Under the pieces are notes generated by a model. The model worked only from the letters and a program-made list of their open reading frames with translations, made no database searches and was not told the DNA's origin. Made by a program: the position numbers and the translations under genes. A DNA stretch of 64,000 nucleotides from Bacteroidia bacterium (GTDB lineage: Bacteria; Bacteroidota; Ignavibacteria; SZUA-365): positions 1,785,131-1,849,130 of the forward strand of contig JAOSJT010000001.1 in the NCBI GenBank assembly GCA_027493955.1, written 5' to 3'. This document shows, piece after piece, positions 3,111-30,806 of this stretch (position 1 is the first letter of the stretch; every line of letters starts with the position of its first letter).

Positions 3111-3209
3111 TCCTGAAACGAAATTCGATGCGTAACTGTTGTAATTTATTGTCCGGGTATTGATGTCCATTTGTTCAGCAACGTAACGTATCCGATTCAA
3201 GCAGTTCAC

Positions 3210-9134: not shown

Positions 9135-12100
9135 TCAAAAGGAAATTCGTGATATAAACTGCCTTTGAATCTCAGGAGATAGTTCTCTGTATTTCTCAAT
9201 GAGCCAGTCAATCTTGAGACTATTCAAATGCTCCTCTAGCTTATGCTTAATCAACTCAAGACGAGATTGATGTTTATCAGCGAGGAACGCAGGAGGTAAA
9301 TTAGCGCGAACGTGTAGATTGTTGATATCTGCCATATTTAGGCCATTTAATTCAGCAGCTTCTTTTTCTATATTATAAATCCACTCCATACTTTTCTCCT
9401 CTCTGTTTTCAGCTATCATTTTCTTGAAATTATCAATTGTCTCTAATGGTTCCCACGGTGGTTCGTCTTGGCCGACCGCTTCAAATACTTCTGATTTTAG
9501 TTTACTAGCGAGTGAATCAAACTCACTCCATGTAAGTCCATCATTATCTAACTGCAGATAGGTTTGTATATATATGCGTAAAGATCTACGCATCAACTGT
9601 AAATCATCAAGATCCTCTCTGCATCCTTCGAAAACAGAAAATAATTCATCGATTTCATTTTGAAGCTCTTCGGCGTCATTAAAAGAATTTATTGATGTTT
9701 GCCATAATCTTGAAGCACGACTCATAGTTTCATTTAATGAATGCTTAATTTCTTCAAGTCTCTCCGACAATTGCAGGCGCACATTTGCGATCTTAGGCAT
9801 CTCGATATGTGTAGAAATGCTTCGAAGTTTGGCAGCATATTCGATGCCGACTTTCTGAAGAGCACGAAGCTCAGATATCCGTACAAATCTTGTTGCTTCA
9901 GCGTGGGTTGTGAGCCATAGGTTTACCTCCCTCAACATTTGGTTCGCAGAAGCTAGCAGTTCCGCTTTTCGTATAGCGGTATTGGTATATTTGACAAGCT
10001 CCTCCTCTAAATCGTCCAATTTTAATTTATTTAAACTTCCGCCCACCTTATGAATCATCTTGTGCTTAAATTCACCAACAGCATCAGGTGTCCCATCCTT
10101 TGGGGATTGCTTTTTGAGCCAATCTGGGAAGAGATTAATCAATGTTTGCCTAGAACGTTCAGCAATTGGTTTGATTTTCTCGATCTCATGATCGGACCAT
10201 AATGGTTTATTTGATGTCATTCGGGATATCAAGTCAACAAGGTCAGCCGTGCCCCAAGAAAGCAAGGCAACGTCAAAGCGTTTGAGCCCATTATCAATTT
10301 TACTTATAGCGGATTCCTGTATTTCTTCATTTTTTTTCAATTCAATAAAGGCCGTTTTCCCTAACTCTTCGAGATGTAATTCTCGATAAGCCTGTGAGGG
10401 TGGCAGCGGTAGTCTTCTTTTTAATTCTTCCGCTTTAATGTACCAATCTCTTCGTTCAAAGTAGGTTTCAGCCTGTTCCCAATCGTCAAGAAGGCTTTCC
10501 CATTCTGAAGAAGAGCCTCCGGAAAGCATCAGTTCCACATCATGCAAACTGCTGACATCGATGAAATTTCCCCTAAAAACTCCTTCTTGGATCCATTCGG
10601 TAATCGTAACAGATCTTCCAGATTTAACGACAGAGAGCTTTTCACTTCGCGGGGCAACAAAAACTCCTAGGAATAGGCCAGCAGAGGCAATATTTGCCCC
10701 ATATGGTGGCGCACAAAGTCCTTTTATTGATTCCTGCAAATGGATCCTTTTTTCGCCATTAGCAAGTTGTTCATCCCATTTTTCCGTAAGCCCCCTTAGT
10801 ACTGGATGCTCTGGACGCATGCGGACAGAGCCATTTTTAGCAAAGACACCCCACGACTCGCGAAGAACAGAAGCTGCACGGTTCTGATCTTTTGCAGGTT
10901 TGGCCATTATAGAATTCCAGTCAAGTCGTCCCTGCAAAAGCTCTGCCGTAAAAATTTGGCAGGTTGTGGCTGCGTTCCCCCTTATCGTGGTGAATCCATC
11001 AAAAGGAAAGATGATTGGACTTTTGTATATTTTTGCAAAGATATCAGATCCGACACGCCCGAGTCGTGTCGATTCCATGGGTTCTTTAAAGGCTGTAACA
11101 TATCGGCGCTGTTTAATCATTCCTTCAATGCGGGATTTAATGTCTGAACGCATTTTTTGTTTATGAGCCGGAATAAGGTTGCCAAACTTTGCGACGTCTT
11201 GAGCGCTGAGAGAGTCTTCCAAAATTGATAGCTCTGCTAATGATTGCCCTAATTTCCCGTCATCGTCGGAAAGCATTACAATCAATACGGGCTGGGCAAC
11301 AATTCCGAAATCTTTTGCTATTGTTCTAAGAAGCATTGATGCATCACGTTCAACAACGTTAATATCTCTACTAGGCTCTACATAACAATAAATTACCGTC
11401 CCTCTCGGCTCGTCAATACTTGCTGCGCTGACCCATCGGTCCGAGGCCAATTTTACGTGTATTGGGAGGACATCAAGGTTTGATGTAATGGCTTGGTAGC
11501 GCCATTCTTTGGTGGTAATTTTATTTTCTTCGGCGAAATCGCATTCAAGATCACCTAGAAGATCACACCAGTCTCCCGCTTTTTTTGAAAATAGTGAAGC
11601 CTTGCCTGTTTCATCAAACGTACTTGCAACCCGCTGGCGAACATAAGCTAGAAACTGAGTTCGTGGTACAGCATCCCCTAGAATATCAAACTGCTTAAAA
11701 GCCTCGTCCCATTCAATTATGTTGAATTCTTCTCTTAAGAGCTTAAGCCCGTCATGGGCAGTCCTAGGGTGAAGTCCTGATAGTTCAGAGAGCGCCGTAA
11801 TCGCCTCTTCTTGGCTAATAGATTTCATTCCAAGTTTTGAGGCAAGCACCACTGATCTTAGTAGTTTTAAAAGATCAGATGATAATTGTGCCCCATGGCG
11901 TGCTATTACCGAGGAGTATGAATGGGTAATAGCACCTTGTTGTCCGCCCTCTTCAGAAGTTATAAGCTCGTGTTGAAGTGCTTCCGACCAAAAATCCACC
12001 GGAGCCAGAAGTCCAACCTTCCCATTCTCAACGACACGATCCCTGTACCGATCAAACGCATCCCAAAGCAAAGCAAGAACCGACCGTTCCTGGAGATGCT

Positions 12101-13415
12101 TTCCCGCTGCAGCAAAATGGAAAAGAAGCCAGACAGCATAGGGTGAAAGGGGCCAGCAACCTTTACGGATGACACTGTGAAATTGAGCCAGATCCTTCCA
12201 GATTCTGTGATTTTGAGAAACCGGAAACCACCTAGAAATATTATCGATAATAAATTCAGATTCTTTTCTTGCAGCGTCATTTCCAAGAAGTTCTGTTATG
12301 TAATTAGTATCATTTTTTTCTATAAGGTTTGCGATTAGCGTTTCTAAGTTTATTGACAAGTAAACTTTGCTAGCAGTTTGATATCTTGTAACATAACGCA
12401 ATATCTCATTTCGATGCTCTGGAGCGACCCGCTGTATGTATGCGTTTAATTCAAACTGAATAAACCCTACAAAACATACCTTGCTTGTATTGTTTTGGAT
12501 TGCCTCGAACATGTCTTGAAGGACGCCACTGCCAGCAACATGACTTTTGACAGTGGCAAATTCCGTATATCTACCAAATTCGTCGAAAAGTATAGATATG
12601 CACTTAAATGGCTTTCCAACCCCACAATACTCACGTGATGCAACGTCTATAACATCCCTTACAGATTCTCCGCCTAATGCGGAAATTCTTATATTTCTGG
12701 ATGCTAGTATTTTATAGACCTTGCTGTACGTTATGTCGTCTTGCTGCTTTAATTTTTGTAAAACATCATCGATGTTTTCAGCATCACATGCGACGAGCAA
12801 CTCATCAACAACATCTTTATTGCCAGCAGCCATTTGAATCAAGCTTGATGCTTGAGCAAACCGGGGACGCAAATCATCGAGTGGGCGAGTATCCAAGTCG
12901 TGACTCTTGACTTGGTTCATAATTTGCCTGGAAACCTCAGAGGCCAAATCGAAACTTTGCATGCCATTCAAGGCTACCACCAAACATGGCTGACTAACTT
13001 CGGCGATCAAGGTCTTGAGGTCGGCCGCAATCTCACGGTCCGCAGATTCGATTCCTGACAAAATAGCATCAGCTTCAATTCCAGTTGGATTACCAAGAAG
13101 CCTGCCAAGGGTCAGACCAAGATGTGATTTTCCAGTACCATAACCGGCTATGGCGAGCGTAAAAGGCTGCTCCTCCAGCCCATAGCAGCGATGAAATATG
13201 GCTTTTACAAAGCTTGCCGTGTCCTGCAACCGATGGCCATGAGAAGTGCCAATATCTGTTTGAGAAACGCCATGGTAAGCAGGGCCGTGAAATACAAAGG
13301 CAGATGACGCAGCCAAAGCCTTAGCTTCGTCGGTTTCTAGCCAATCAATGTTAACGGCACCATTGAAAAGCTTATCTCCGCGAAAACGAACAATGTCGCC
13401 AAGCAACTTTAACAT
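9135..13415 (-). CDS. Large P-loop ATPase, second SspC-like protein (C')
   Basis: 1426 aa. Walker A is GYGTGKSH at residues 91-98 and Walker B is LFDEFGRY with D278/E279. The N-terminal layout resembles the SspC encoded at 25636-29025: a short leader, a target-like region, then a P-loop before residue 100 and hhhhDE about 130-190 residues later. The protein is about 300 aa longer, with a long helical, charged C-terminus (roughly residues 900-1400) that suggests coiled coil. Its start has a good ribosome site (AAAGGAG) that overlaps the stop of the preceding DUF4007-like gene. The coding sequence is AT-rich. The proposed role is a DNA-acting motor or regulator partnering the small protein upstream, by analogy with SspB/SspC. 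BrxC/PglY-type ATPases are alternatives, but no other BREX gene is present. Confidence 0.7.
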   Translation of the reverse strand: MLKLLGDIVRFRGDKLFNGAVNIDWLETDEAKALAASSAFVFHGPAYHGVSQTDIGTSHGHRLQDTASFVKAIFHRCYGLEEQPFTLAIAGYGTGKSHLGLTLGRLLGNPTGIEADAILSGIESADREIAADLKTLIAEVSQPCLVVALNGMQSFDLASEVSRQIMNQVKSHDLDTRPLDDLRPRFAQASSLIQMAAGNKDVVDELLVACDAENIDDVLQKLKQQDDITYSKVYKILASRNIRISALGGESVRDVIDVASREYCGVGKPFKCISILFDEFGRYTEFATVKSHVAGSGVLQDMFEAIQNNTSKVCFVGFIQFELNAYIQRVAPEHRNEILRYVTRYQTASKVYLSINLETLIANLIEKNDTNYITELLGNDAARKESEFIIDNISRWFPVSQNHRIWKDLAQFHSVIRKGCWPLSPYAVWLLFHFAAAGKHLQERSVLALLWDAFDRYRDRVVENGKVGLLAPVDFWSEALQHELITSEEGGQQGAITHSYSSVIARHGAQLSSDLLKLLRSVVLASKLGMKSISQEEAITALSELSGLHPRTAHDGLKLLREEFNIIEWDEAFKQFDILGDAVPRTQFLAYVRQRVASTFDETGKASLFSKKAGDWCDLLGDLECDFAEENKITTKEWRYQAITSNLDVLPIHVKLASDRWVSAASIDEPRGTVIYCYVEPSRDINVVERDASMLLRTIAKDFGIVAQPVLIVMLSDDDGKLGQSLAELSILEDSLSAQDVAKFGNLIPAHKQKMRSDIKSRIEGMIKQRRYVTAFKEPMESTRLGRVGSDIFAKIYKSPIIFPFDGFTTIRGNAATTCQIFTAELLQGRLDWNSIMAKPAKDQNRAASVLRESWGVFAKNGSVRMRPEHPVLRGLTEKWDEQLANGEKRIHLQESIKGLCAPPYGANIASAGLFLGVFVAPRSEKLSVVKSGRSVTITEWIQEGVFRGNFIDVSSLHDVELMLSGGSSSEWESLLDDWEQAETYFERRDWYIKAEELKRRLPLPPSQAYRELHLEELGKTAFIELKKNEEIQESAISKIDNGLKRFDVALLSWGTADLVDLISRMTSNKPLWSDHEIEKIKPIAERSRQTLINLFPDWLKKQSPKDGTPDAVGEFKHKMIHKVGGSLNKLKLDDLEEELVKYTNTAIRKAELLASANQMLREVNLWLTTHAEATRFVRISELRALQKVGIEYAAKLRSISTHIEMPKIANVRLQLSERLEEIKHSLNETMSRASRLWQTSINSFNDAEELQNEIDELFSVFEGCREDLDDLQLMRRSLRIYIQTYLQLDNDGLTWSEFDSLASKLKSEVFEAVGQDEPPWEPLETIDNFKKMIAENREEKSMEWIYNIEKEAAELNGLNMADINNLHVRANLPPAFLADKHQSRLELIKHKLEEHLNSLKIDWLIEKYRELSPEIQRQFISRISF

Positions 13416-13428
13416 GGGCCATCTCCTT

Positions 13429-14268
13429 TTAGATCAAATCACAAAAAATTAGTTTCCAGGCTGCTTCTAGATCCATCCTTGGATGCAAAAGCCAAGGCTC
13501 CATATGACGGTCAACGGTAAACAATCCTTTTCTTTCGGCCAGTTGGAGCACTCGCTGAAGAGCATCTATGTCCCAACCTGGAATGGTTCGCCAACCAGCA
13601 ACCGAATCAAGCTCTACAACAGAAATTTGGCCGTTCTTAGGGAAATGGTCATGTACAAGCTGCAACAACCATGCACCATATCCAAAACCGAATTCGTCAC
13701 TCACCGGGGCAGGTTTTCGAGTAATAACCCCACTTTTTTCCGACAAAGCTCCACAAGTTCGAAACGCAGCATCATCCTCGTAGGTGCCAACCAATGGCCC
13801 GATTATGCCGGACTTGTCTATTTTGAGAACAGAGTGAAGGTAAGTCTCCAATTTAGATCGCTCAAATGCCATTCCGAGTGCTTGCTTGCCAGGAAAGAAG
13901 GTTTGATACCAGACTTCAGCACCACATAAAGGGCTGCAAAGATATAAATGGGCTACCCACTGCGTAATATTCAGTTTTAAAAATGGGTCTTCTAGTAGCA
14001 CAATGCGGCCAAAGGGTGTGAGATCTGGCTTTTTTATAGATGTTCGGCTGGAACTAGGTAGTCGAATGAGCCCCATACCCCGACAATAATCGATAATAGC
14101 GGGAACCTTGCCACTCGACACCCCCATAGGAATACCGGTTTCCGATGCGATTTCCTGATAATCCCCTGACTTTCCAGATGCCGCATAACGGAGCAATGCA
14201 TTGATGTACTGACGCTCCGGCTTGAAAGATTTATGGAAATTTCGAGGAAGGCGCGAAGGTTTACTCAT
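13429..14268 (-). CDS. Divergent DUF4007/SspB-like protein (B')
   Basis: 279 aa. The N-terminus (residues 1-70) looks like a winged-helix region with GDYQEIASETGIP. Then comes a DUF4007-like pattern, LTPFGRIVLLEDPFL...QWVAHLYLC, which matches the LT.FG...DPFLED...WLLHW pattern of the SspB encoded at 29025-29915. The first DUF4007 motif (FSGH.TF..RYGWL) is replaced by FHKSFKPERQY, so homology is remote. Its ATG overlaps the sspH stop by eight bases (ATGAGTAA), which ties it to the ssp operon. It is followed by a large ATPase, repeating the B-then-C order. A nickase or DNA-recognition role is inferred from SspB and not shown by a catalytic motif. Confidence 0.65.
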   Translation of the reverse strand: MSKPSRLPRNFHKSFKPERQYINALLRYAASGKSGDYQEIASETGIPMGVSSGKVPAIIDYCRGMGLIRLPSSSRTSIKKPDLTPFGRIVLLEDPFLKLNITQWVAHLYLCSPLCGAEVWYQTFFPGKQALGMAFERSKLETYLHSVLKIDKSGIIGPLVGTYEDDAAFRTCGALSEKSGVITRKPAPVSDEFGFGYGAWLLQLVHDHFPKNGQISVVELDSVAGWRTIPGWDIDALQRVLQLAERKGLFTVDRHMEPWLLHPRMDLEAAWKLIFCDLI

Positions 14269-17200
14269 CGAAACTACGCTCCTCCAATGCTGTTATACGA
14301 ATTTTCAAGGCTCTCGGGACAAGCTTTTCTCCAGCTTGATCTAGAATACGACCAATGGAATAACATTCTCCTTTTGAGAGTGAAGATAGTTTGCGAATCC
14401 AGTCGTCTACCTTTTGTCTTGTTGCCAATGCGGCAATCTCTGCGAAGGCCTTAAGTTCAGTGTCAGCTGGCCTAAAGAAGAGTTTATGCTCCGCATTAAA
14501 CATGCGGTCCCGCTCGTCTTTTCTCATATTACTCATAGTTTGCGTTGCAAGTATGAGTGAAAGGCCAAATTTTCGTCCCTCACGCAAATATTTCGACAGG
14601 GGACTTCCTTCCTTGTGATCAAGATTCTGAACCTCGTCGAGTACGATAACTTTGGGATCCGTTTTCTTCCCTTTTGACTGAAGGTGTCCGTACAAATCCC
14701 ACAAAATAAATTCAGTAATTAACCTTCCAGAGTACATATCCATTCCAGCAAGCTGGAATATGTTGCATAGCGGATCCTGTTCAAGGAATAAATGATCCCA
14801 ATCAAAGCCAGCCTCACCAGATGAAAAGGGTTGATCCAAGACAAATGGGCGTAACTTGTTGTGCAGTGATTGCGCGTATGCCTTGTACTGCTTATCCTCA
14901 GCCATCGATTCGATTATTGAAAGCATGTGATCAAGATTCATTCCGCTTTTCATGCTTTCCACACCGTCCATAATGGCGTGGTGAAGAACGCTATATTGCT
15001 GGTTTCCAATATCATATACCGAGTCAAATAGGCCAGCGATGCGCTTGGCAATGGCATTGGAATTTTCTTTGATTACAATCCCGCCATTATCGGACACCTG
15101 GGGTAAAAAAGGATTGATCGGGAGCGGCTCCTGACGCACTACATGCTGCTTGGGTGACAAAATCTCATTGGCTATTTTTTCCAAGTGATTCGGAAGGAAG
15201 CCATTCGTGTAGTCAATGATCAGGCTGTTTTGCCTGAATTTACTCATCTCGCACAGCATCGCCTGTATGGCGTAGGTCTTCCCTTGCCCTGAAGATCCAA
15301 AAATGAGCATATGACGGTTTGCTAGCTCAGGGTGCTTGAACTCCCAATAAACCGGCTGGCCATTGGGGACTGTCTCACCAAGAAGGATTCTCCCGGAAGG
15401 CACTTCTTTATTCACGACGGGTGTTACCGCCGCAACGCTTTCAGAGCCGGTTTCTTGCGGCATTGTGCCTGATGGCTCCGAAGCTGCCTTTGTCTCCATC
15501 TCGGGTTCGGATGGTAGTGTTGAATCTTTGATCAGCTCAGCAGCCAGCGGCTGACCGGCTGGTTCAAAAACCTCATCTTCAGAGGACTCATCCTCGTTTT
15601 CATCCTCGTCATATACCCAAGGCGTGTAATCATCCTCTGTATCCTCGGGAATATACTCATCATCCTGTTCAACGACCGCAGCCTTCTGCGCATTGATGGC
15701 TGTCCAGTCGACAGGATACTCTAAGGAGTCAGTCATCAATTGGCGTACAAATCCTCCCCCAACAGTGTAGACATTGGCGACCACATCGAGATCTCCACCA
15801 ACGCTCCAATATCCGGCGCGTTTAATTTCTGGATCCTGATCGATCCAGAAGGCGAATACTGAAGCATCCCAAGTTACTAAAAAATCTCCTTCCGCCAAAC
15901 GTTCGAGTGCCGACAGGACATCCGAATACTTGATTTTCGATACTTCCGTTTTGCTAGCAATCAGACGATGGAGCTGCATCCACCAGTAGCGGCGGTCGGG
16001 ACGATCTTCGATGGAGCCCGCTCCTCCTGCCCTTTCCGTCGAACTTTTAAAGGCGGAACCCAATACTGACAGGCCGTTGTCAATCTGCGACTTGGCCTTA
16101 AAAATGTGCTCCGGCGACTGTTGTCCCATCTTGCATTCGATCAGATGCAGTTTCACGTGGAGGCGTCCATCCTCTCGCAGCCAAACCTGCATCCACATTA
16201 GATCTGGGCGACGTAAATTATCTGCAAGATCAAACCAGTGCCGGTAGGCATCTAGTGAGATCAATGATTCACAAAGCAGGTCTTCGGACCCTCGCAGCAG
16301 TTTCCGGGTCAAGGAATATGCCATGAAATCACGGATGTATTGATCTGCAGCTCCAGTTGCTCTTACCAAAGATAGACCGGAAAGCTCGGGGGCAACATGA
16401 AGAACTCCTTTGGCAACAGCTTTGCAATCGTCCAAAGACCAGCCCGCTTCCGCTGCGTATAGCTGCTGAATGGCGGCCTGCAGCCGGAAGTGAATATCGG
16501 CAAAAGAAAACTGCTCGGTCGAAATGGTGTAATTGTCTTCGCCGTGGCTACCGACTCCTGAACCAAAGCCAATTATTTCCCGCTCTTTGTTCTTTTCGAG
16601 TTTGGGCGTTCTGATGAGGCGTTCATCCATATTGGGATCAATGCAGATAATCCACTCGGCTTTGTCATGGAGGCAGTCAATTAGCGCTCTCCACGGCGAA
16701 AAATCTCCGGAACCAACGACGACAGTGCCGGTCTGCTGTGTTCCAGTCTTCAGACCATGCAGCAGAGTGGCGTGATAGGCTCCAAGTGCAAACTGCCGGT
16801 TGCTTACAACCCGTTTCCGTTTGTATTTATCGGCCGGGTTACTGACAGTGCAGCAGGCCTTTTCAAGGATGGGGAATTTAAGATCGCGGCTGGTGATATC
16901 GAAGGGCTCGACTCTCTCAAACTCATTCACACCGGTACCAGCGCCAATAAAATCGTAAAAAACGGCAATATCCGCCTCAAACTGCTCTTTTATCAGCTTC
17001 TGGAATGCACCGAGATCGTTTTTTTCAACGATACGGTGAGCCACAGAGAAACGGCAGTTCCGGTACAGCTCATATTTTGTTTCGGTTTCAGCAGCCTCCC
17101 AACGCTCCTTCCACTGCTGCACCCAGTTGGAAATGTCGGATTCATCATTGGATTCCGTAAACACGGTCACACCGATGGCGTAGGGTCTTCTTCGTTCCTC

Positions 17201-19714: not shown

Positions 19715-21324
19715 AGGACGTCCCCTCTGTCATCCGCCGGATTGTGGATCAGCGCACAGGAATCGGATAGATGGATTAGGAACCCGGCGGCCTCCAGCAT
19801 TTCCTGAAGCCACTGGTCCGTGTCTGCCGGTAAATAGATTCCCTTGCCGCAAAGTCGCTCGCTGGCCCGATCAAGTCCTTTGGCATCAAAGACTAACCCA
19901 TGCCGGCGCTCCAGCAGCTCCTTGAATGTGTCGAACGTAAGTCGACCTCCCACCGGAACCGTGGTCACGACCAGCAGGCGCAGCAGTTGTTCATTCAAAA
20001 CAAACCGCGCACCGGCCCCCCTTTTGGGAACGACGAAACCGAGGCGTTTGGAGAGGCCCACGAACAGCTTGCTGCCGTAGGATCGGTCCGCCTGTTTAAG
20101 TTTTTTATTCCGTTCACCCTCATCCTCCGGCAGCTCAACCGTGTCCGACCTCAACGATTGAAAAATCATCTTTTCAATCGCTTTGACTGATTGCTGTGAA
20201 AGGCGACGGATAACCGGACGGTTCTCTTCCGGAGCCGATACGGCCAGCCGATAGTCCGGCCCGCTACAGGGTTCCGCACCGCTCATGAGTCGCATGCTCT
20301 GCATTGCCAGGGTGCGGAGAACCTGCATGGAACAAGCGGTCTCCAGCATATAAATCCGCTCCACCACATCCAGATTGCTCTGCATGAGACGAAGCAGATC
20401 AACAGCAAACAGATAGCCTTCCATCCAGCTTTCTGCATTGCACCAACCGGCGGAGACAAAACGACGATCCGACTCGGTCCCATCAGTGCTTTCCGGGGTG
20501 ATTGGATCCAAACGGGAGTCAATGAATTCCGCAAGTTCCGTCAAGGTGGGTGGACAGAAGCTCATCAGATTCTGCAACGATTCGTTCAGCTGAGTGTGCA
20601 GCCACTCCGGATCCTGTTCGTCTTTCGTCAATCCGAAAACCCCATCCCGGCACCATGCGGTGATTCGGTCGTGAGGTTGCCTCAGCGCATTGCAGACCTG
20701 CAAATAAAGCAGCTCACCGCCTCGCGATAAGAAACGGTGCTGATTCATTGTTAAGTATTTGCTTTTGTTTTCAAAAATATCATCCCAGCTGTCTGGATTC
20801 TCTCTCTCAGCCGCACTTTCATTCCAAATCGTTTCCCCTGCTAGAAACGAGTGAGAAATCGGAAGAAAGCTCTGGGCACACCATGTCCTACCGCTGCCTG
20901 CGCCTTGAAACCCGAGAAACAGATTTTCGATAGTGCGGATAATATCCTTTTTACGCTCGGGGTCATCGACCTGAATTTGACCGTGCAGTTTTTGGATCAA
21001 CTGCTCATGGTGGACCCGGTGTGTTTGGTGGCGAGACTCCAGCCGGGATGCCCCCAAAAAGGAGAAGAGTTTCAGGTTCAGACGCGCCTTCGGCGTATAT
21101 TCAAGTCGTGCGTTATTCCAAGCAAAAAGCAGTTCCCGGCTCGGCAAGGCCGTTTCAAAAACCGAGTGTCCTGTCCGTTTGGGCGAAAAGATAACAAGCA
21201 GGAATTCGCTCAGCAGTTCACTGATGGTTTGGTCGGAAAACAGGCGGTTGCCATAGAGCTGAATCGCCGGATTCTGCATCGCTTTCACATCATCTGGAGT
21301 GTAGGGAAAATAGTTAAAGGTCAT
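19711..21324 (-). CDS. sspG: Phosphorothioate-linked restriction protein SspG/DptG
   Basis: 537 aa, with no nucleotide-binding motif visible. It is assigned by position between an SspF-like P-loop protein and SspH, by length, and by resemblance to the DptG/DndG family (N-terminal NYFPYTPDDVKAM..., long helical body, C-terminal basic region). It starts with a strong ribosome site (GGAGG, five bases before the ATG) that lies inside the sspF end; sspF and sspG overlap by 11 bases. Its biochemical role in the FGH complex is unknown to me. Confidence 0.75.
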   Translation of the reverse strand: MTFNYFPYTPDDVKAMQNPAIQLYGNRLFSDQTISELLSEFLLVIFSPKRTGHSVFETALPSRELLFAWNNARLEYTPKARLNLKLFSFLGASRLESRHQTHRVHHEQLIQKLHGQIQVDDPERKKDIIRTIENLFLGFQGAGSGRTWCAQSFLPISHSFLAGETIWNESAAERENPDSWDDIFENKSKYLTMNQHRFLSRGGELLYLQVCNALRQPHDRITAWCRDGVFGLTKDEQDPEWLHTQLNESLQNLMSFCPPTLTELAEFIDSRLDPITPESTDGTESDRRFVSAGWCNAESWMEGYLFAVDLLRLMQSNLDVVERIYMLETACSMQVLRTLAMQSMRLMSGAEPCSGPDYRLAVSAPEENRPVIRRLSQQSVKAIEKMIFQSLRSDTVELPEDEGERNKKLKQADRSYGSKLFVGLSKRLGFVVPKRGAGARFVLNEQLLRLLVVTTVPVGGRLTFDTFKELLERRHGLVFDAKGLDRASERLCGKGIYLPADTDQWLQEMLEAAGFLIHLSDSCALIHNPADDRGDVL

Positions 21325-23602
21325 CGGTTACCTCCAGATTGTTGCCATTTACGGCAAAACGCTGCCTGCGAAAGGTGTGATCCGTTTTCAGGCGCACCAG
21401 CATGATCCGTTCGTCGTCATGAGCGGAGGCCTTTTGTTGAACCTGCGCCTTGAAGCAATCGAGCCGCTCAAGATAGGAAGCTTCAAGCACCTCGCCCAGT
21501 TCACCGAAATGGCGCATCATGACATAATCCAGAAACGGTACCTTCAACGGCAACTTCAGTCCGTCAATACGACTATTTTCCTTTCCGCATAAAATGAGAT
21601 CTCGACGCAATTCACCCGATGCACTGACGCTGTTGATTAGCCTTAATGTTGTCGAGTCTCCCCAGTCGACTTCGGCCAAAACAACCTGGGCGCTCTGCCG
21701 GACTTCGCTCCGGCGGCGGCTCAAAGTTATATAAAGCCGCCGCCGGTCATTCTGCGTCGATCCTTCGGGGAGCCGCACCCCGGTAAAGTGCTCTTGAAGG
21801 ACATGGTATATCTTGCGTTCGAGCGTCTCTTTTTCTTGCCCATTAAGCTGAACTCCACCTTGTTGCCATCTGATCCAGTCCAGAATCGTCGGAGAGTTTA
21901 GGTACTGCCCCAAATATCCCTGTTTCCCTTCGGGAAAGTCCGCCAGAAAATAGAGCATGCGGCGAACCTGTTCCCGGGCCAGATCCGATGACATTCCGAT
22001 AAACTGCGACTCATGAGCCCCATGACGGCGCAGCTTTTCAAACTCCGTATTCAGCGAATCCACACCGAGCGTCACTGGCTCGTCACAGTTGCGCAGCCAC
22101 AGTTTGTGCTCCCATCCTGGGCAGGGACGTTCCCCGAATTTCTGTTTTTCGATCTCCTGCACTGCCTTCATTTCGAAGGCTGAACCATCCGGTTGGCGGC
22201 CGTTGTCGCCAAAAAAGCGGTTGAAAAAGAGATATTCGGAAATCAGCGGAGGTGGATTCTGCGTCTGAACCTCCCGGATGTCCTGTTGATCCAGCCCGGA
22301 GGTGATGAGATATGCAAGGTGCTCCGTAAACTGCCGCATGGTCAGGCGCGTTCCATATTCATACATGCGCCGATAAGCCAGAAAGATCCGTTCGGTTGCC
22401 CGTTCCTGATTGGATTGCAGGAGGTTGACGTTGATGAAAATGGGACAGGTTTCCCGGCAATCCAGAGTTTGGCAGATCGTCCAGCGTTCCGGAGCCAGCA
22501 TCTTTTCAAAAACCCGGCGGGCCAGCGCCATATTATCCATGCGGGCCAGGTTGAATACCCGGAATTTGATGCCGCCCAGAGACAGGGTCGATTCCCCGCT
22601 CTCGCTGCTGATAGCCTTTAAGACGCGGCTTTCCACTTCAACATCCTTTTCGCCGAAATATGCCGAATGCCGCTTGGCAAGATCCAGCAAGGTACCAGTG
22701 TTGGAGACCAAAAGAAAACGGCGATCTCGTTTCGACAACTCGTCCAGCAGGCTTGGATCCTCGTTACGATCACGTTCACTCAGGTCTTTTATGATAGATA
22801 CATCCCCCGTATCTTCACGAGGTTGCGGCGGCACATCCAGGGGACGGTCACGATCCCAGTCCCGAAAAAGCTTATATACCTCCATGGCGAGGGTAGATTT
22901 CCCGTCTCCCGCATGTCCCGTCAAAAGTACATGTTGGCCTCCCGGATCCCTCATTTCTTTATAAATGATGTCCGCCAGCGGATGCTTTACGTGGATGGTG
23001 GCAAACTGCGCATTGCATACCTGCGATTCTGCCAATGCGTTTTCATTGCTTCCACCCGAGCGTTGAAGTGAATTAAGATAACTCACAAAGGGATTTAAGG
23101 AAGCTTCACTCTGCCCATCAAGCAATCTTTCAAATGACTGGGCGCGGTGATCGCTCCGGTTACTACTCTCTTGTAGACAATTAATAATAAGCTGAACAAG
23201 TTCCCCCCGCGTTGATTCATCCTCTAGCAAGCTCAGTAGGGGGTCTAAAATTAATGCATGGTCCACTAAATCACATAACGCTCCAGGACCTCCAACTGTT
23301 TCTGTTGCCTCAAGCTCTGGTGCCTTTCCATCCAAAGGCACCAACGACCAAAACGTAGAAGTGTGTAAATGGAAAAACGGAGTGTGAGCCCTGCAACTAC
23401 TGCTGGTATCAGGTGAAAACTGATTAAATAAATCCGAAAAAGTCTCTTTGAAGAATGAATCGAAATAAATTCTTCCGTCTGAAAAGTTGTTCTTTTTCAG
23501 AGATTCAATCGCTGTCAGCAGTGCAATCAACTTATGCGGTTTAAAAGCATTTCCTTTCCAACCTAATGCACGAATTTCCCGTTTGACCTCCATCAGCATC
23601 AT
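21314..23602 (-). CDS. sspF: Phosphorothioate-linked restriction ATPase SspF/DptF
   Basis: 762 aa from the chosen start. Walker A is GHAGDGKS at about residues 229-236, as in DptF/DndF. A cysteine-containing segment (TLDCRETCPIF) follows in the middle. The open frame reaches back to 23644, but GAGGAGG lies at optimal distance before the ATG at 23602, so that start is preferred. It then begins 10 bases after sspA ends. It should act with SspG and SspH as the restriction module. The first about 180 codons (23.0-23.6 kb) are visibly more AT-rich than the rest, suggesting a mosaic gene. Confidence 0.85.
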   Translation of the reverse strand: MMLMEVKREIRALGWKGNAFKPHKLIALLTAIESLKKNNFSDGRIYFDSFFKETFSDLFNQFSPDTSSSCRAHTPFFHLHTSTFWSLVPLDGKAPELEATETVGGPGALCDLVDHALILDPLLSLLEDESTRGELVQLIINCLQESSNRSDHRAQSFERLLDGQSEASLNPFVSYLNSLQRSGGSNENALAESQVCNAQFATIHVKHPLADIIYKEMRDPGGQHVLLTGHAGDGKSTLAMEVYKLFRDWDRDRPLDVPPQPREDTGDVSIIKDLSERDRNEDPSLLDELSKRDRRFLLVSNTGTLLDLAKRHSAYFGEKDVEVESRVLKAISSESGESTLSLGGIKFRVFNLARMDNMALARRVFEKMLAPERWTICQTLDCRETCPIFINVNLLQSNQERATERIFLAYRRMYEYGTRLTMRQFTEHLAYLITSGLDQQDIREVQTQNPPPLISEYLFFNRFFGDNGRQPDGSAFEMKAVQEIEKQKFGERPCPGWEHKLWLRNCDEPVTLGVDSLNTEFEKLRRHGAHESQFIGMSSDLAREQVRRMLYFLADFPEGKQGYLGQYLNSPTILDWIRWQQGGVQLNGQEKETLERKIYHVLQEHFTGVRLPEGSTQNDRRRLYITLSRRRSEVRQSAQVVLAEVDWGDSTTLRLINSVSASGELRRDLILCGKENSRIDGLKLPLKVPFLDYVMMRHFGELGEVLEASYLERLDCFKAQVQQKASAHDDERIMLVRLKTDHTFRRQRFAVNGNNLEVTDDL

Positions 23603-23612
23603 CAGCCCCTCC

Positions 23613-24767
23613 TCATGGTTGTCGGAAAATACTTTTAATTTCAACTACTGAGCGTCTTAGCATCTCTATGGCCTCATGGATGTCGTTTTGGGTTGTATGT
23701 CGCCCCAAAGAGACTCGAATCGTCCCTTTCGCTGTTTCACGATCACATCCAATTTTCTCAAGCACGTGAGATATCGTGATTGCATGATTGGAGCAAGCCG
23801 AACCCTCAGAAACAGCGAGTGTCTGTAGATTGTCGATGAGCAGATCGGCAGGAACTTTTGGAAAAGCGATTGAAAAGACCCCTGGCAATCTAGGAGTGGT
23901 CAGCGAGTGAACTATGCTTTCTGGAAATGCTCTTGCTATCCGCTCTAATAACTCTTTTTCGAGTCGAACGATTTCCGCTGAGCCATTCTTTTGAACATAC
24001 CCTTGGCAAATGGAGCAAGCTTTACCGAAGCCAACTATACCTGGAACGTTATTTGTCCCAGGGCGCAAACCATGCTCCTGCCCCCCTCCACGAAACGGTC
24101 GTGCCCAAGGCCATTTCCGGGCGCCTCCTCGGACAAAAAGCGCCCCCACCCCCTTGGGGCCGTACATTTTGTGGGCGCTAAATGAGGCAAAATCACAATT
24201 GACCACCTGTACATCGAATGGCACCTTGCCAAGCACTTGGGCAGCGTCAGTGTGGAAATAGGCCCCGTTCTCGTGGGCTAGATCAGCCAGCTCAGCTACA
24301 GGCTGCAGCGTCCCCAGTTCGTTGTTGGCAGCCTGCACTGAAACCAGCAAAGTCTCCGGGGTGATGAGCTTTCTAGCAGCATCCAAATTGGTTACGCCAG
24401 TCTGGTCTACGGGCAGCTCAACAACCTCAAATCCATGTTTTTCCAGTAGGTGGGCGGGCTCAAGGACCGACTTGTGTTCAATGGTCGATACCGCGATCCG
24501 TTTTCGGTCGGAGCGGGGCGTCAGTAGCACGCCCAGAAACAGCAGATTGTTGCTCTCTGTAGCTCCCGAGGTAAAAATCATTTCGGCAGGGAGCGCATTG
24601 GCCAAAGCGGCAACCTGCTCCCTGGCTGTTCTGACCGCCAACTCGGCCCGTCTCCCCATCAGGTGTCCGCTGGAGGGATTACCATATTCTTCATTCCAGT
24701 AACGCTGCATCGCCTCCACGACTTCCGGGGCGCATGGTGTTGTCGAATTATGGTCCCAGTAAATCAT
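23613..24767 (-). CDS. sspA: Cysteine desulfurase SspA
   Basis: 384 aa PLP enzyme of the IscS/NifS/DndA family. Visible features are H99 (TIEHKS), PLP-binding K200 (SFSAHKMYGPKG) and catalytic C325 (GSACSN). The usual N-terminus MIY-D-N-(A/S)TTP starts at the ATG at 24767. The 11 extra codons back to 24800 overlap sspD and are not expected. The enzyme takes sulfur from cysteine as a persulfide and passes it to SspD for DNA backbone phosphorothioation. It sits between sspD and sspF within one operon. A housekeeping IscS role is possible, but its location argues for a dedicated enzyme. Confidence 0.92.
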   Translation of the reverse strand: MIYWDHNSTTPCAPEVVEAMQRYWNEEYGNPSSGHLMGRRAELAVRTAREQVAALANALPAEMIFTSGATESNNLLFLGVLLTPRSDRKRIAVSTIEHKSVLEPAHLLEKHGFEVVELPVDQTGVTNLDAARKLITPETLLVSVQAANNELGTLQPVAELADLAHENGAYFHTDAAQVLGKVPFDVQVVNCDFASFSAHKMYGPKGVGALFVRGGARKWPWARPFRGGGQEHGLRPGTNNVPGIVGFGKACSICQGYVQKNGSAEIVRLEKELLERIARAFPESIVHSLTTPRLPGVFSIAFPKVPADLLIDNLQTLAVSEGSACSNHAITISHVLEKIGCDRETAKGTIRVSLGRHTTQNDIHEAIEMLRRSVVEIKSIFRQP

Positions 24768-24778
24768 TGAAAAAAATC

Positions 24779-25618
24779 CTAAAGATGACAGATGTTGCAA
24801 GAGAGAGACTCGCCATCGTCGGAGTCATAGCCCCAAATATCTTTCAGTTTCTGATGTCCCTTAAAAGCATTCGTCTCACGCTCTTTCCTTTTTGCGTGCT
24901 CTTCCATAATTGCCTCTGCGCGTTGGGCCAGCTCATCAAGGGTCTCACCCTGATTCCAGGTATACCGTACACCTGTTTCTGGATCGTATTTTTCGTATTT
25001 TTTTGCTTCTTCAAAAAGTTCAGGGTGATTTTGAAGCAATCCTACCCATTCACGCTTCTGCTGATAGAAGCAAAAATAACATCCTGACCGGGACCGCCAC
25101 TCATAATAACGAGGCACCCCCAGCCCCGACTCATTAAGAATCCTTTCCACATCTTCAAGACGTATATTATTTTCAACAAAGGGTAAGACTGTTTTCACAT
25201 TGGGTTTTGTTGAAATGTAGCCTGTACGGTGAGGTTCATCTGCTCGTATGCCGACATAGCTGATTACAGGATCGTTGCCTATGAAATCTTCGTAAGGCTT
25301 CAGCTTTAGATACTCTGTACACCAGCGAGACTTTGGAGATGGGAGGTAACCTTTCTTGATTTGAAGGATCTCGTCGAACCCATATCCCGATGAGTATTTA
25401 AGAAAATGAATCTTTTTGCCGAGAAAAGTTTCTAGTTTAACCAAGTACTCATACGTCTCATCAAGTTCCTTTTCTGTGTCACAGAAAACATATTCGACAT
25501 CCGGAATCTTGCCCAACATGTAAACAGCTAGCGCAGAGCTATCTTTACCCCCTGACAGCGCCAGAATATGTCGCACAGGCTTATCGGATTTTGCAGATAT
25601 TTGAGTATCGGAATACAT
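24779..25618 (-). CDS. sspD: PAPS-reductase-like ATP pyrophosphatase SspD
   Basis: 279 aa. The PP-loop SGGKDS at residues 22-27 binds ATP, and downstream are the SRWCTEYLK and GCYFCFYQQKREW motifs with cysteines suited to an Fe-S cluster or persulfide relay. This is the pattern of DndC/SspD. It should adenylate the DNA backbone or activate sulfur received from SspA. A good ribosome site (AAGGAG) precedes the ATG, 17 bases after the sspC stop. The family also includes sulfate-assimilation CysH and tRNA enzymes; the ssp neighbours decide the call. Confidence 0.9.
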   Translation of the reverse strand: MYSDTQISAKSDKPVRHILALSGGKDSSALAVYMLGKIPDVEYVFCDTEKELDETYEYLVKLETFLGKKIHFLKYSSGYGFDEILQIKKGYLPSPKSRWCTEYLKLKPYEDFIGNDPVISYVGIRADEPHRTGYISTKPNVKTVLPFVENNIRLEDVERILNESGLGVPRYYEWRSRSGCYFCFYQQKREWVGLLQNHPELFEEAKKYEKYDPETGVRYTWNQGETLDELAQRAEAIMEEHAKRKERETNAFKGHQKLKDIWGYDSDDGESLSCNICHL

Positions 25619-25635
25619 TGGGAACTCCTTGCAAT

Positions 25636-28600
25636 CTAATTCTGGTTCGACTCAATTGTGCTCAATAGCTCCCTTAAGGCAGCGGCAAGGGCGCGGGAAT
25701 TGTCTTTCCCTCTTAGTTTGCTGAGCTGAGGTTCCAGCATTATCCGGAAGGCCTCCTTTTGCTCGAGCTCCTTGTTAGTCAAGACAGGACCAGCATCCCC
25801 ATAGTTAAGCCAGGTCTGCCGGAACAGCTCCCCCATGCCTTTTGCCAACCCTTCAAAACTCTCTAAGTCCATGTCAGTCCACTGCTCAAAAGGCCGATTG
25901 GCGATCAGAGACAATGCTGGGCGTGCGTTGTGGTCGTCGGCAATGCCGTTGTTCACACAGTTGAGAAAGGGGGTCAGCACCTCATGCTTAATGCGTGGTA
26001 CGAGCCATGCCGCTCTACGTTCGAGCTCGTGCCACCCATCGATGTTTTCGGCAAGCCCACAGTGACGGAGCAAGACCTTCCTTTTCTTCTCAAGCAACTT
26101 CGGGCCGTAGTTGTTTAAGGTGGAAAGACTGTTATTGAGCTGCTCAAAAAAATAATCCACGTCTCTTTCACGCCTCTGCCCCTGCATGAATGGCTGCAGC
26201 CCAAAACAACGTGGCAGGTCGACAAAGAGGAGCTGTTCCGGTGAAGCCGCGTGCAACAGGCAGTCGCGCACTTTTACTGCCGCAGCATTCCCGATCTGGT
26301 TTGTTTTCTGTGTGACGGGTGGCAACGAATTCAATACCCGATACAGTGCACGCACGACCGATGCCGTCTTAGGAGCCTGTTTTAAGCCTGTGGCCAGACG
26401 TTCCACAACAGCCTTGCGGGTGCCATCAAGCTTTGCGCCCGAAACCGCAAACAGGTCAGGCCTTCTTTGCAGCAGCTCCAGGTGGGCCGACTGGACTTCG
26501 GGAATAAAAGTACCTTCCCTATAAAGAAACAACTCATCCTGGTAATGGAGGTAAAAGGCAACAAATATAATTGGATGAACACCATCCGGAAGACCATATG
26601 GGACATTTGCAAGCTGTTCAAACAGGTCGACAAGTTCGATCCGCTGAATATTTTCCGCGAATACTATATCCTCAACCAAATCCCACGATGGCCGTAGGTT
26701 GCAGCTATTGCCCTCAGAAGGAGGTCCGAAGTCCCAACGCTGACGGTCATCATTAAAGAAGTGAACCCCAGAAGCACGTAACACGGATTCATATACGCTG
26801 CGTTCCGGAGGGTAGCCCTCAATGCCAAGACACTCCTCACCGCGCCTTTCCAACATGCGCTCCAACAGACAACGTCGTGCTGCTGAAGCAGCGCTTGAAA
26901 GTTTTTTTCTGACGACCAGCTCATTTCGGACCATGGGGGTTAAATGGTATATTTGGTCACATGCCTGGGATAGCAATTTTGTTACATCAACAGGCTTTTG
27001 CGGCTGCTGGTCTTGACCGTGCCATATCCATTGACAAGAATTGCCCACCGGCGCAGGACGAGGATCTAGCAACGTCTGAATATGTTGGGCGATGTGCTGT
27101 TCTCCCATAGCGAGCCTCAAGCTTAACTCGCGCCGGGCAATGCGGTCATCACGGAGTTCAGGCGTATTTTTTTCGACCCAACGTAAGCAAGCTACCTCCT
27201 CCGCAACACCGCGTAAGGCATCAACTTGTGTGGGCAGAGCAATAATGAGCCTTTTTTGTCCCTTGGCCGCTTCGAGAGCTTCTGCCTTTAGTCGCTCTAT
27301 GTTGGCTTGTGGCAGCAACACAATAATGGTGCCTGCTGCATCTTCAAATCTATCAGCTGCCTTCAGAATACTTTTGCTCAAACTCTCCGCGTACATCAGA
27401 TTGAAATAACGGTTGACACCAGTTTTCAGGCTGTGGCGACGGGCAACGAGAGTCCTGGCAGGAAGGTGATGGCAAAGAGCCTCCAAGGGCGACACACTTT
27501 CAATCTGAAGCTTTCTCCTACCTTCATTCATTCGGGCTTCGATATCGACATCGCTGCCCTCCCAAACCCGATATGAGTTGTCCAATCGTCGATAAGTGAC
27601 TACCGACTGCTGTCTCAAAAACTCCAGGTCCTGATCTAGTGTTGCAGGGCTAGAAACAGCACTCCTGAGAATTTGCGCTGTGGCGCGAAGAGGACATATT
27701 TCTGACAAGACATTCAAAAGCGCCACTGTCTGCACAATTTCAAGTTGGGCGTGACTTAGATAGTGACGGCTATTTATAATGTCGTTGGCCTCCAATAAAC
27801 GTTTCGCGTGCGGCAAGCGAGCTAGCCCCGCCTCAAAGTTAGCTAATAAATAAGCATAGATGTGATGCAGACGGATAAAGTTGTCACCCCCGTCAACAGG
27901 ATGGTCAATATGGTACTGGAAGGCAAATGGCTCGCAGCTGGTTAAATAAGAAAATATGGATCGTTCATTCTGTGCGAGCCTTCTGAATAAGTAGGGCATT
28001 GCCAGCAATAAGCTAGGGTGCAATGGCCATGAGCGACGAGCTATTTTTTCAAATTCGGCATATTCCAGGCCAAAAGGGAGTGAGATTGCTCCCTTTTTGA
28101 TGTCCAACAAAGCGTAATCCAACTCATCCGCTATTGGCTTTGGCAAATTGACAGCTGGATGTAATGCTGAAGCTATAAGCCTTATTGTGGTGCCCGCTGA
28201 CTCGCTGAATTGAATAGACTGAAAACGCTCCTGGACCTTGTTCCACTCATTACGAAGAGTTCGATCAGACAGCTCAACATAGTCGTCAAACATTTGGTGC
28301 AGGGTAATGAGAAACAGCAGAGGTGTTTTCGATTGGCGGCTGGCGTATTCCGCCAACTCCTGGAAAATATATACGTCGCCACCTGCTCGATCCTGAAGGG
28401 CGTATTCCAGTGTTTTCCCCGCCTCGTCAACAAGCAAGAGAACGCCAGTGAAAAATTGTTTCTCCGCCTCTTTCTGAACGTCAGTCAGAAAACCAACCAC
28501 AATGGCAGTGTCTCGCCAAACCTTTCGCCGAAGCGCCTCCTCAATTCGAGCATGGAGATCCCTCACTGATGTAGAAATTTTCATGCCCCTGACGGCCTCG

Positions 28601-29025
28601 AGCATTCCTTCCAACAGCAATTGCGCGATGGGGCGACGACGAGCCGTAACCGGGACAAGAAGAAATCCCTCTCGGCCGTCTTTGGTTTTGCGAATTTGCC
28701 GCAACTTTGCATTCAGCTTGGAGTATTCCGGGGCAAGCATTTTAGCTGCCTGGTCAACCTTCCTGGCATCCCGATCCAAAAGCTGACAAAGAAAAACCGC
28801 AAATGCTGATTTCCCGGTTCCGTATGGACCGGTCAAAGCGAAGGCCCGCTGCCCCTTTTCGGATAACAACCCTTCGCTCAGTTGCTCCAGCGCCTGAGCT
28901 ACATTGGGGGTTACAATGTAACCGGACGCACTGCCAATGTTCTGCCAGTCGTTATGAAGGTTGACAGAGCGCAAAAATCGAGGCGCTACCGCAACATAAT
29001 GAGATCTTTTCAGGCCTTTGCCCAT
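25636..29025 (-). CDS. sspC: Phosphorothioation ATPase SspC
   Basis: 1129 aa from the ATG at 29025 (an in-frame GTG lies one codon upstream). Walker A is GPYGTGKS at residues 66-73, and Walker B is VLLLVDEAG with D200/E201. It is not an SMC-type DndD, which supports the single-strand (Ssp) rather than double-strand (Dnd) type. The ATG overlaps the sspB stop by one base (TGATG), and AGGGG lies about eight bases upstream. SspC is the ATPase of the SspBCD modification complex. The C-terminal 700 residues hold no motif that I can name. Confidence 0.85.
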   Translation of the reverse strand: MGKGLKRSHYVAVAPRFLRSVNLHNDWQNIGSASGYIVTPNVAQALEQLSEGLLSEKGQRAFALTGPYGTGKSAFAVFLCQLLDRDARKVDQAAKMLAPEYSKLNAKLRQIRKTKDGREGFLLVPVTARRRPIAQLLLEGMLEAVRGMKISTSVRDLHARIEEALRRKVWRDTAIVVGFLTDVQKEAEKQFFTGVLLLVDEAGKTLEYALQDRAGGDVYIFQELAEYASRQSKTPLLFLITLHQMFDDYVELSDRTLRNEWNKVQERFQSIQFSESAGTTIRLIASALHPAVNLPKPIADELDYALLDIKKGAISLPFGLEYAEFEKIARRSWPLHPSLLLAMPYLFRRLAQNERSIFSYLTSCEPFAFQYHIDHPVDGGDNFIRLHHIYAYLLANFEAGLARLPHAKRLLEANDIINSRHYLSHAQLEIVQTVALLNVLSEICPLRATAQILRSAVSSPATLDQDLEFLRQQSVVTYRRLDNSYRVWEGSDVDIEARMNEGRRKLQIESVSPLEALCHHLPARTLVARRHSLKTGVNRYFNLMYAESLSKSILKAADRFEDAAGTIIVLLPQANIERLKAEALEAAKGQKRLIIALPTQVDALRGVAEEVACLRWVEKNTPELRDDRIARRELSLRLAMGEQHIAQHIQTLLDPRPAPVGNSCQWIWHGQDQQPQKPVDVTKLLSQACDQIYHLTPMVRNELVVRKKLSSAASAARRCLLERMLERRGEECLGIEGYPPERSVYESVLRASGVHFFNDDRQRWDFGPPSEGNSCNLRPSWDLVEDIVFAENIQRIELVDLFEQLANVPYGLPDGVHPIIFVAFYLHYQDELFLYREGTFIPEVQSAHLELLQRRPDLFAVSGAKLDGTRKAVVERLATGLKQAPKTASVVRALYRVLNSLPPVTQKTNQIGNAAAVKVRDCLLHAASPEQLLFVDLPRCFGLQPFMQGQRRERDVDYFFEQLNNSLSTLNNYGPKLLEKKRKVLLRHCGLAENIDGWHELERRAAWLVPRIKHEVLTPFLNCVNNGIADDHNARPALSLIANRPFEQWTDMDLESFEGLAKGMGELFRQTWLNYGDAGPVLTNKELEQKEAFRIMLEPQLSKLRGKDNSRALAAALRELLSTIESNQN

Positions 29026-29915
29026 CACACATCCCCTCGGCAGTAATAGCTGCTTAGCAACTCTTCGGCTTCATCGAGGGCTACATTGCAATGCACTTGT
29101 GCAACACCAGCGGACTCTGTGAAATCGAAACGATTCCCCCAAATCGAGTTTTCATGTAATTCCTGAACGGCCTCAATCAATGCGTTTTCATCCAGCATAA
29201 ACACTTGCCCAGGGCTTCCTTCCTTGTAGAGCACTCCCTGAATTGTCATTGCGCTCTTGTTTTCTCGTCCGAAATACTCGCAGATTGCATAACCAATAAT
29301 TTCTGCGGGAAGAGAAGCTTTAGCCCCAATTGAAAAGCGGTAAAAGTCTCCTCCACTCATCGCCTGAATTAAGTTCAGCTCTTGCAGAGGACAATCGAAT
29401 GATTCCTCTCCGGATTTTTTTTTCTCAAATCGCTTGAGCCCGCAATAAGAGCGGATAAAGCAGTCGACATCTCTCATGATAATATTGTCGGAAGGGGCAT
29501 TCTTGCCTGCATCAACAAAGCGCAAGGCTGCTTCAGCCACATCCTGTTTCGAAAATTCAGGCTTTCGGAGGTAAGAGAAGAGAGCCGTGCCTGAAGTCTT
29601 ATAGTTCAGGTTTGTAGTAAGTTTCCAATGCAACAACCACCAGGAAGCTTGGTCCTCCAAAAAAGGATCCCAGCCTGATCTCTCGTCCAATAGTTTCTTC
29701 CCGAAACGGGTAACAACATCGCCTTCGATGATCCCGGTCAAATCGCACCAGTACTTAATGCTATCGACCATGTTTTTTCCAACACCCAAATCAACAATAG
29801 CTGATTCGTGAGAAAAGCTTTTTCTGTTTGCGGTGAACTCGTAGCCCTTCTCCAACCAACCATAGCGGAGGGAAAAAGTCTGATGTCCTGAAAATTTTAC
29901 TCGCTGGTTATTCAT
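29025..29915 (-). CDS. sspB: DUF4007 nickase SspB
   Basis: 296 aa. The N-terminus carries the DUF4007 hallmark F-SGHQTFSLRYGWL-KGY (residues 8-25). Further on are FGKKLLDE and WDPFLEDQASWWLLHW, the second conserved block. DUF4007 proteins of ssp loci are the nicking subunit that opens one DNA strand for single-strand phosphorothioation at short motifs. It is the first intact gene of the operon. Only 14 bases separate it from the stop of the decayed helix-turn-helix gene upstream, so it was once co-transcribed with that regulator. Confidence 0.88.
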   Translation of the reverse strand: MNNQRVKFSGHQTFSLRYGWLEKGYEFTANRKSFSHESAIVDLGVGKNMVDSIKYWCDLTGIIEGDVVTRFGKKLLDERSGWDPFLEDQASWWLLHWKLTTNLNYKTSGTALFSYLRKPEFSKQDVAEAALRFVDAGKNAPSDNIIMRDVDCFIRSYCGLKRFEKKKSGEESFDCPLQELNLIQAMSGGDFYRFSIGAKASLPAEIIGYAICEYFGRENKSAMTIQGVLYKEGSPGQVFMLDENALIEAVQELHENSIWGNRFDFTESAGVAQVHCNVALDEAEELLSSYYCRGDV

Positions 29916-30369: not shown

Positions 30370-30806
30370 TCAGAGGTTCCGCCCACCATTCGCGGGCGTG
30401 GGTCGAAATTCGTATTGCCGCTGACCGAGATTCGGGACGGATACCGCGTTCGAGCAAGGTGTTGCGCACGGCCTGATTGTTCGAAATATGTACCGCGAGT
30501 GGTCCTCCCCGCTGCGCAGGCCGTGTTGTCGGGCGTTGAAAATGGTGATCTCGATGGCGAAATCCCTGGCTTTAGGAATGATCGTGGGCGCGATGTCCGC
30601 CAGAGGACGATTGTCCGGTACCTCCCACCGCGCTTTCATCGCTTGTGTGGTCTTGTTGAAATCGCCTTTGCTTCGAAACGGGCGAAATTCTCATCACCAC
30701 CGGTTTGCTCGAAGATGACGGCGAAAAGCTCCTCATCGAACAGCCGCCCGCTGCCCGGCTTGCCCGGGACGAGACTGGAGCGGAAAAGTTCACTTTGATT
30801 TTTCAT
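30370..30806 (-). pseudogene. Remnant of a DinD-like protein
   Basis: The frame opening at 30806 overlaps the stop of the upstream ORF (ATGA) and runs 56 codons (MKNQSELFRS...NFARFEA) to a TGA at 30636. After a frameshift near 30665 the sequence continues GDFNKTTQAMKARW, then NRPLADIAPTI, KARDFAIEIT and, after a second frameshift, NQAVRNTLLERGIRPES. These blocks match the C-terminal half of Bacteroidota-type DinD (DNA-damage-inducible protein D). The N-terminal DinD/BRO-N-like region is absent and the first 46 residues are of unknown origin, so a deletion is likely as well as the frameshifts. The 3' limit is approximate. Confidence 0.6.

Follow-up and report, generated by a model that had tools for sequence, protein, structure and literature searches.

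The window analysed here is a stretch of 64,000 nucleotides from the genome of a Bacteroidia bacterium, which consists of one contig of 5.24 Mb. Positions 9135-29915 of the window are filled by nine co-directional ORFs on the minus strand, in the order sspB-C-D-A-F-G-H-B'-C' (Table 1), and both the gene order and the coordinates given by a first-pass annotation of this DNA were confirmed. The G+C content of the operon is 48%, whereas that of its flanks is 57-60%, and this difference suggests that the nine genes were acquired horizontally. As had been noticed before, B' starts inside the stop of sspH (GATGAGTAA); C' begins 13 bp past B' and is preceded by AAGGAG, a good ribosome-binding site. 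A scan for promoters and terminators 3' of C' gave no signal. Adjoining the operon at 30803-32062 is a composite ORF with an AAA_23/SMC-like N-terminus, a RecG-C-like HATPase_c_4 domain and a Fic-like C-terminal domain, which may be a fusion or a decayed gene. A tRNA-Arg(ccg) called by ARAGORN at 5246-5339 of the window, within the ORF 3171-5519, is probably a false positive.

Table 1. Features of the nine-gene operon, in window positions
Feature	Coordinates	Strand	Evidence
sspB, DUF4007 protein of the modification module	29025..29915	-	PADLOC SspB 7e-81; Pfam DUF4007 3e-77
sspC, ORC/Cdc6-clade ATPase of the modification module	25636..29028	-	PADLOC SspC 1e-291
sspD, PAPS-reductase-family ATP pyrophosphatase	24779..25618	-	PADLOC SspD 1e-105
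sspA, cysteine desulfurase	23613..24800	-	PADLOC SspA 2e-129
sspF, N-terminal SBD (~residues 1-183) fused to SspF P-loop core (184-776)	21314..23644	-	PADLOC SspF 6e-30
SBD-coding part of sspF, candidate phosphorothioate reader	23096..23644	-	SBD profile match
sspG	19711..21324	-	PADLOC SspG 2e-19, C-terminal 120 residues
sspH variant, PD-(D/E)xK nuclease motif and C-terminal HerA/DUF87 motor	14261..19714	-	motif conservation; DUF87/TrwB matches
B', restriction-side SspB paralogue, start overlaps sspH stop	13429..14268	-	AF2 model; SspB 6juf; hhalign 98.2%
C', restriction-side SspC/BrxC-type ORC/Cdc6 AAA+ ATPase	9135..13415	-	hhalign SspC; BrxC 9zdx fold; 142 relatives

The first seven genes had been assigned to the known SspABCD-SspFGH type. 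This holds for sspB, sspC, sspD and sspA, whose PADLOC matches are clear, and homology and comparison support SspABCD as the putative phosphorothioate (PT) writer. The products of sspF, sspG and sspH are divergent homologues of SspFGH, and sspH, with a motor of the HerA rather than the FtsK kind, does not belong to the experimentally studied SspH type.

The PADLOC SspF match covers F only partially (residues 184-483). The N-terminal domain of about 180 residues matches the profile of the sulfur-binding domain (SBD) SBDHga1 (PDB 8h0l; 3.8e-40), and the corresponding domain of F from another clade matches the SBD of ScoMcrA (5zmo; 2.6e-13). In ScoMcrA the sulfur pocket has the residues H116, R117 (most homologues have Lys here), Y164 and P165 (PMC6224610), and the matching His, Lys and Pro of F (H37, K38 and P89) are invariant in 19 of 19. 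All full-length cases examined carry this N-terminal extension, whereas canonical SspF starts at the P-loop core and lacks an SBD. Homology and comparison support F as a candidate PT reader. In some loci, a PglW-like cassette of NERD nuclease and Ser/Thr kinase lies within F, between the SBD and the SspF core; in L112 (12089-16717) and L100 (872-5446), F reaches about 1,500 aa with inserted NERD nuclease-related and protein kinase domains. The position of sspG is conserved in all long loci.

Among the PADLOC models, H scores better with DndH (5e-55, C-terminal region) than with SspH (1e-14), and its motor matches HerA/DUF87/TrwB, the FtsK_SpoIIIE match being weak. Of 51 H proteins, at least 95% retain the PD-(D/E)xK motif, which is P1170-D1171...E1193-C-K1195 here. 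H is accordingly described here as a predicted nuclease plus DNA motor, an assignment supported by homology and comparison.

The last two genes had been said to repeat the order of a small DUF4007-like gene followed by a large ATPase gene, and this description was borne out by the SspB fold of B' and the SspC homology of C'. The match of B' to Pfam DUF4007 is weak but real (4e-6; 26.5 bits, just under the cut-off of 27), 63 of the 66 members of the B' family match an SspB model, and the hhalign comparison of B' with SspB profiles in Table 1 extends over 230 columns. The AlphaFold2 model of B' (pLDDT 94.3) aligns with the SspB crystal structure 6juf at Z 20.7, with 270 of 279 residues aligned, the next match being at Z 7.7. 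From profile and predicted structure together, it is certain that B' is an SspB-fold protein along its whole length, and the proposed likeness to DUF4007 proteins survives the structural comparison. The first DUF4007 motif is not lost, as the first-pass annotation had it, but altered from GHQTF in SspB to FHKSF, with the two Phe invariant across the B' family, and the SspB motif GVGKNM has become a TGIPxGxSSGKVP-type loop; neither conserved SspB motif is kept. From these motif changes it cannot be told whether B' is the second nickase suggested in the first-pass annotation.

C' matches the PADLOC SspC model only weakly (6e-10), but hhalign relates it to SspC profiles at 99.7% over 776 columns, and it is 296 aa longer than SspC, close to the difference of about 300 aa given previously. 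A model of residues 1-960 only (pLDDT 88, pTM 0.60) has as its top match BrxC 9zdx (Z 17.5 over 477 residues, 15% identity), followed by ORC/Cdc6 proteins at Z of about 13. The suggested likeness to SspC was therefore recovered by profile, with BrxC being the closest by structure. The Walker A (GYGTGKSH) and Walker B (ILFDEF) motifs are present, and Walker A and the DE of Walker B are invariant across 65 sequences. Judged by profile and by the modelled fold, C' is certainly an ORC/Cdc6-type AAA+ ATPase and an SspC homologue. Sequence searches of B' and C' against the PDB gave no significant match, leaving fold comparison only, and NCBIfam contains no model for either protein; current annotation (PADLOC, NCBIfam, Pfam) overlooks or scarcely detects C'. 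Naming C' as the BrxC of type-4 BREX in the PADLOC sense was considered and dropped, since the PADLOC BrxC model there corresponds to the SspC-like protein.

Based on a scan of the C' alignment against genome contigs of 84,980 species, 142 relatives were found and the best 80 were kept. These best 80 of 142 come from Chlorobi, Desulfobacterota, Spirochaetes, Verrucomicrobia, Lentisphaerae, Acidobacteria, Chloroflexi, Firmicutes, Bacteroidetes, Cloacimonadota, Planctomycetes, Gammaproteobacteria and others, and a search for C' in the 60 nearest-kin genomes gave no match. Within the best 80, B' adjoins C' in 78, and H lies upstream of B'C' in 75, being found wherever the contig extends far enough. 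Four of the five loci without H are at contig ends or on short contigs (L032, L075, L088 and L090) and the fifth (L081) is fragmented, so they were not taken as counter-examples. SspC is present in 46 of 50 genomes carrying C'. In 35 of 41 cases examined, SspC lies within about 26 kb of C' on one contig, and the order B-C-D-(A)-F-G-H-B'-C' occurs in 29 of these 35; in the remaining six of the 41, the contig reaches no more than 13.5 kb upstream of C', and SspC is encoded elsewhere in the genome, on a different contig. The converse search, with an H query lacking the motor, was run on 395 genomes of one other phylum and matched five (three already known and two new); B'C' occurs in all five, and in both new matches directly after H. 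Other genes were observed between H and B' in some loci: a block of three BrxC_BrxD-family ATPases and a DEAD-box helicase in L068 (1705-8733; Thiocapsa), with a similar gap in L065, and an AAA_21 ATPase and DUF4276 pair in L080 (7306-9131), which resembles a separate small defence unit.

The modification and restriction genes do not always keep the same arrangement. In six loci (L062, L064, L067, L071, L072 and L084), BCD is inverted or on the other side, whereas F-G-H-B'-C' is intact. Pairwise-distance correlations are high within the modification block (B-C 0.95, C-D 0.80) and within the restriction block (G-H 0.97, H-C' 0.93, G-C' 0.91, B'-C' 0.91, H-B' 0.86), and range from 0.54 to 0.68 across the blocks, including C'-SspC (0.64) and B'-SspB (0.68). 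Because shared operon history inflates all such correlations, the evidence is the contrast between blocks and not the absolute values. These comparisons show, at the level of sequence, that B' and C' evolve and travel with G and H rather than with SspBCD. The earlier proposal that B'C' belongs with SspH to the restriction module is supported by the absence of B'C' from canonical SspFGH and by the recurrent linkage to H (75 of 80 loci, and five of five when anchored on H), which is also what a genome search for B'C' pairs beside sspFGH was expected to reveal if the nine genes form one system. Sequence and comparative data support B'C' as an obligate component of the restriction module; its roles as a second sensor or as a complex with SspH, both raised in the first-pass annotation, remain possible.

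This organization resembles that of SspABCD-SspFGH of the Vibrio anguillarum FF-93 type (PMC8092258) in the adjacent SspBCD, in the homologous F (P-loop) and G, and in a very large H whose C-terminal part is a DNA translocase and which has a homologous region at H 1011-1300. However, canonical SspH has an FtsK/SpoIIIE motor (5.6e-34) where H has a HerA motor, and canonical SspFGH consists of three restriction genes, in contrast to five here (F-G-H-B'-C'). Since canonical SspFGH functions without any B'C' (PMC8092258), the role of B'C' is not general to SspFGH. The PADLOC SspH model matched cellular FtsK in 21 of 21 genomes tried and was unusable for counting canonical SspFGH, so plasmids were searched with the full canonical SspH protein instead. 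This search yielded 34 plasmid records, and C' is absent from all 34. The C' search of the same plasmid collection found only one record, from Thermomicrobium, whose B'C' pair is not beside FGH.

The nearest relatives of B'C' occur in type-4 BREX, a PT-linked system (PMC12839542) which, like the operon here, combines SspB-C-D with a second pair of DUF4007 protein and ORC-type ATPase (here B'' and C''). For both proteins the type-4-BREX-like counterpart is nearer than the Ssp one: C' compares with C'' at E 3e-53 and with SspC at 2e-25, while B' compares with B'' at 3e-21 and with SspB at 3e-14. The effectors of type-4 BREX are PglZ and BrxL, without F, G or H, whereas neither PglZ nor BrxL was matched in the window or in the searched L013-L134 loci. 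A type-4-BREX-like order, B-C-D-B''-x-C''-PglZ-BrxL-A, is recognized in Thermomicrobium and Pseudanabaena and also in two genomes from the phylum to which the window belongs, and among plasmid records this PglZ and C'' occur in the same three and in no others. The second pair lies between sspD and pglZ in L003 (18493-23993), L010 (7030-12802), L011 (6536-12765) and L157 (12720-19415). The large ATPase of the second pair in these loci is not covered by any PADLOC model and is not among the type-4 BREX components named in the available text of PMC12839542.

Other defence systems share parts of this theme. BREX-related capture (BRC) systems (PMC12839542) also bring a HerA translocase together with a BrxC-like ATPase and a DUF4007 protein, but their defining components are PglZ, DUF6079 and a STAND NTPase, with TGT/GNAT in some cases, whereas the window has no PglZ and C' has no DUF6079 match at E 0.1. 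The HerA domain of H is DndH-like, and the PADLOC DndF and DndG models gave no match in the operon at E 0.1. A theme of HerA, Orc/Cdc6, SspB-like wHTH and nuclease was predicted earlier (PMC10853773). There, Orc/Cdc6-HerA capture systems carry an inactive REase between the Orc/Cdc6 AAA core and its wHTH, and the accessible text on HerA/FtsK capture systems contains no SspBCD linkage, SspF/G or SBD. BrxC (PDB 9zdx, 9zll), the closest solved structure to C', partners BrxB and PglZ, in whose place C' has B' and FGH, and is reported to gate idle versus restricting complexes (PMC13326643). Given the predicted theme (PMC10853773) and the BRC and type-4 BREX systems (PMC12839542), the nine-gene operon is rated as a new SspFGH subtype within a known theme, not as a new category. 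No description of the five-gene F-G-H-B'-C' module was found in the literature; subscription papers, preprints and supplementary files were outside the search, and a prior description cannot be ruled out.

We consider it somewhat more likely than not that the operon encodes a two-module PT restriction-modification system, in which B'C' is a restriction-side pair that licenses or loads H and PT-marked DNA is spared. SspA and SspD would supply sulfur, and the SspB/SspC pair, by homology, would scan DNA and make the PT mark. B'C' would be a paralogous copy of this scanning pair, shifted to the restriction side, in which B', as an SspB-fold DNA binder, would place the ORC/Cdc6-type ATPase C' on DNA, and C' would assemble in an ATP-dependent manner and then license or load the HerA-nuclease H. 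The SBD of F would read PT and report whether a site carries sulfur; PT-marked self DNA would stop the complex, and on unmarked DNA H would translocate and cut. The licensing or loading role is inferred by analogy with ORC/Cdc6 helicase loaders and the proposed BrxC switch (PMC13326643), with no biochemical evidence and no predicted complex. That PT inhibits rather than activates the restriction module is inferred by analogy with SspFGH, a system that damages DNA free of PT and becomes toxic when modification is missing (PMC8092258).

The polarity of PT is where the main alternative differs: the restriction module could be activated by PT in the manner of SspE, so that the SBD of F, bound to host PT, would switch B'C'-H onto unmarked phage DNA. 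SBDs are known in type IV enzymes acting on PT-DNA (PMC6224610), SspE is PT-stimulated (PMC8092258), and the extension of F, constant in the full-length cases and missing from canonical SspF, would suit such a switch, which its SBD could serve just as well as PT inhibition; but the behaviour of SspFGH, the nearest experimentally known relative, speaks against it, the linkage to SspBCD is compatible with either polarity, and we regard PT activation as unlikely while keeping it in consideration. B'C' might instead form a further modification complex, drawing on the same SspD and SspA and introducing another PT target motif. The homology of B' and C' to SspB and SspC, which covers most of their length, would fit, and a single SspD could serve two pairs, yet B'C' evolves with G and H, remains with FGH where BCD has been relocated, has no sulfur genes of its own, and has its closest relatives beside PglZ-BrxL effectors, all of which makes this reading quite improbable.

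Equally hard to favour is a role of B'C' in restraining the nuclease complex, as an immunity or antitoxin-like regulator, instead of licensing it. The translational coupling to sspH and the reported balance by BrxC between idling and active assemblies (PMC13326643) are in its favour; there is no direct evidence for it, however, and the conserved Walker A and B motifs point to active ATP turnover, without excluding restraint. The matches of F and G to the SspF and SspG models might also be taken to indicate an ordinary SspABCD-SspFGH system with two unrelated downstream genes by chance, an explanation that we hardly entertain: it is refuted by the recurrence of F-G-H-B'-C' among the best relatives across many phyla, and C' is in none of the 34 plasmid records with canonical SspH. 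An orphan or chance linkage of B'C' was likewise rejected in view of the linkage across 80 loci.

The F-G-H and PglZ-BrxL contexts together indicate that a B'C'-type pair accompanies two quite different effectors. Wherever the neighbourhood is readable, this pair is beside SspBCD, and a PT reader was found in both contexts. PT systems may then comprise two paralogous DNA-scanning ATPase pairs, SspB-SspC as writer and B'-C' as checker, the latter being an interchangeable adaptor that licenses either the HerA-nuclease or PglZ-BrxL while an SBD reads self; we put this generalization forward tentatively, at slightly less than an even chance. One common pair would connect Ssp, Dnd, BREX type 4 and HerA-capture systems, and an SBD reader with a duplicated scanning ATPase would offer a testable answer to how marked and unmarked DNA are discriminated. 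A 2021 survey recognised no restriction partner for about 84% of sspBCD loci (PMC8092258), and the five-gene HerA-type partner, present in many phyla, covers part of this gap. In L011, the SBD is fused to B'' itself; sspC of the same locus (13589-16954) is split into two ORFs of 246 and 860 aa, by a frameshift or an assembly error.
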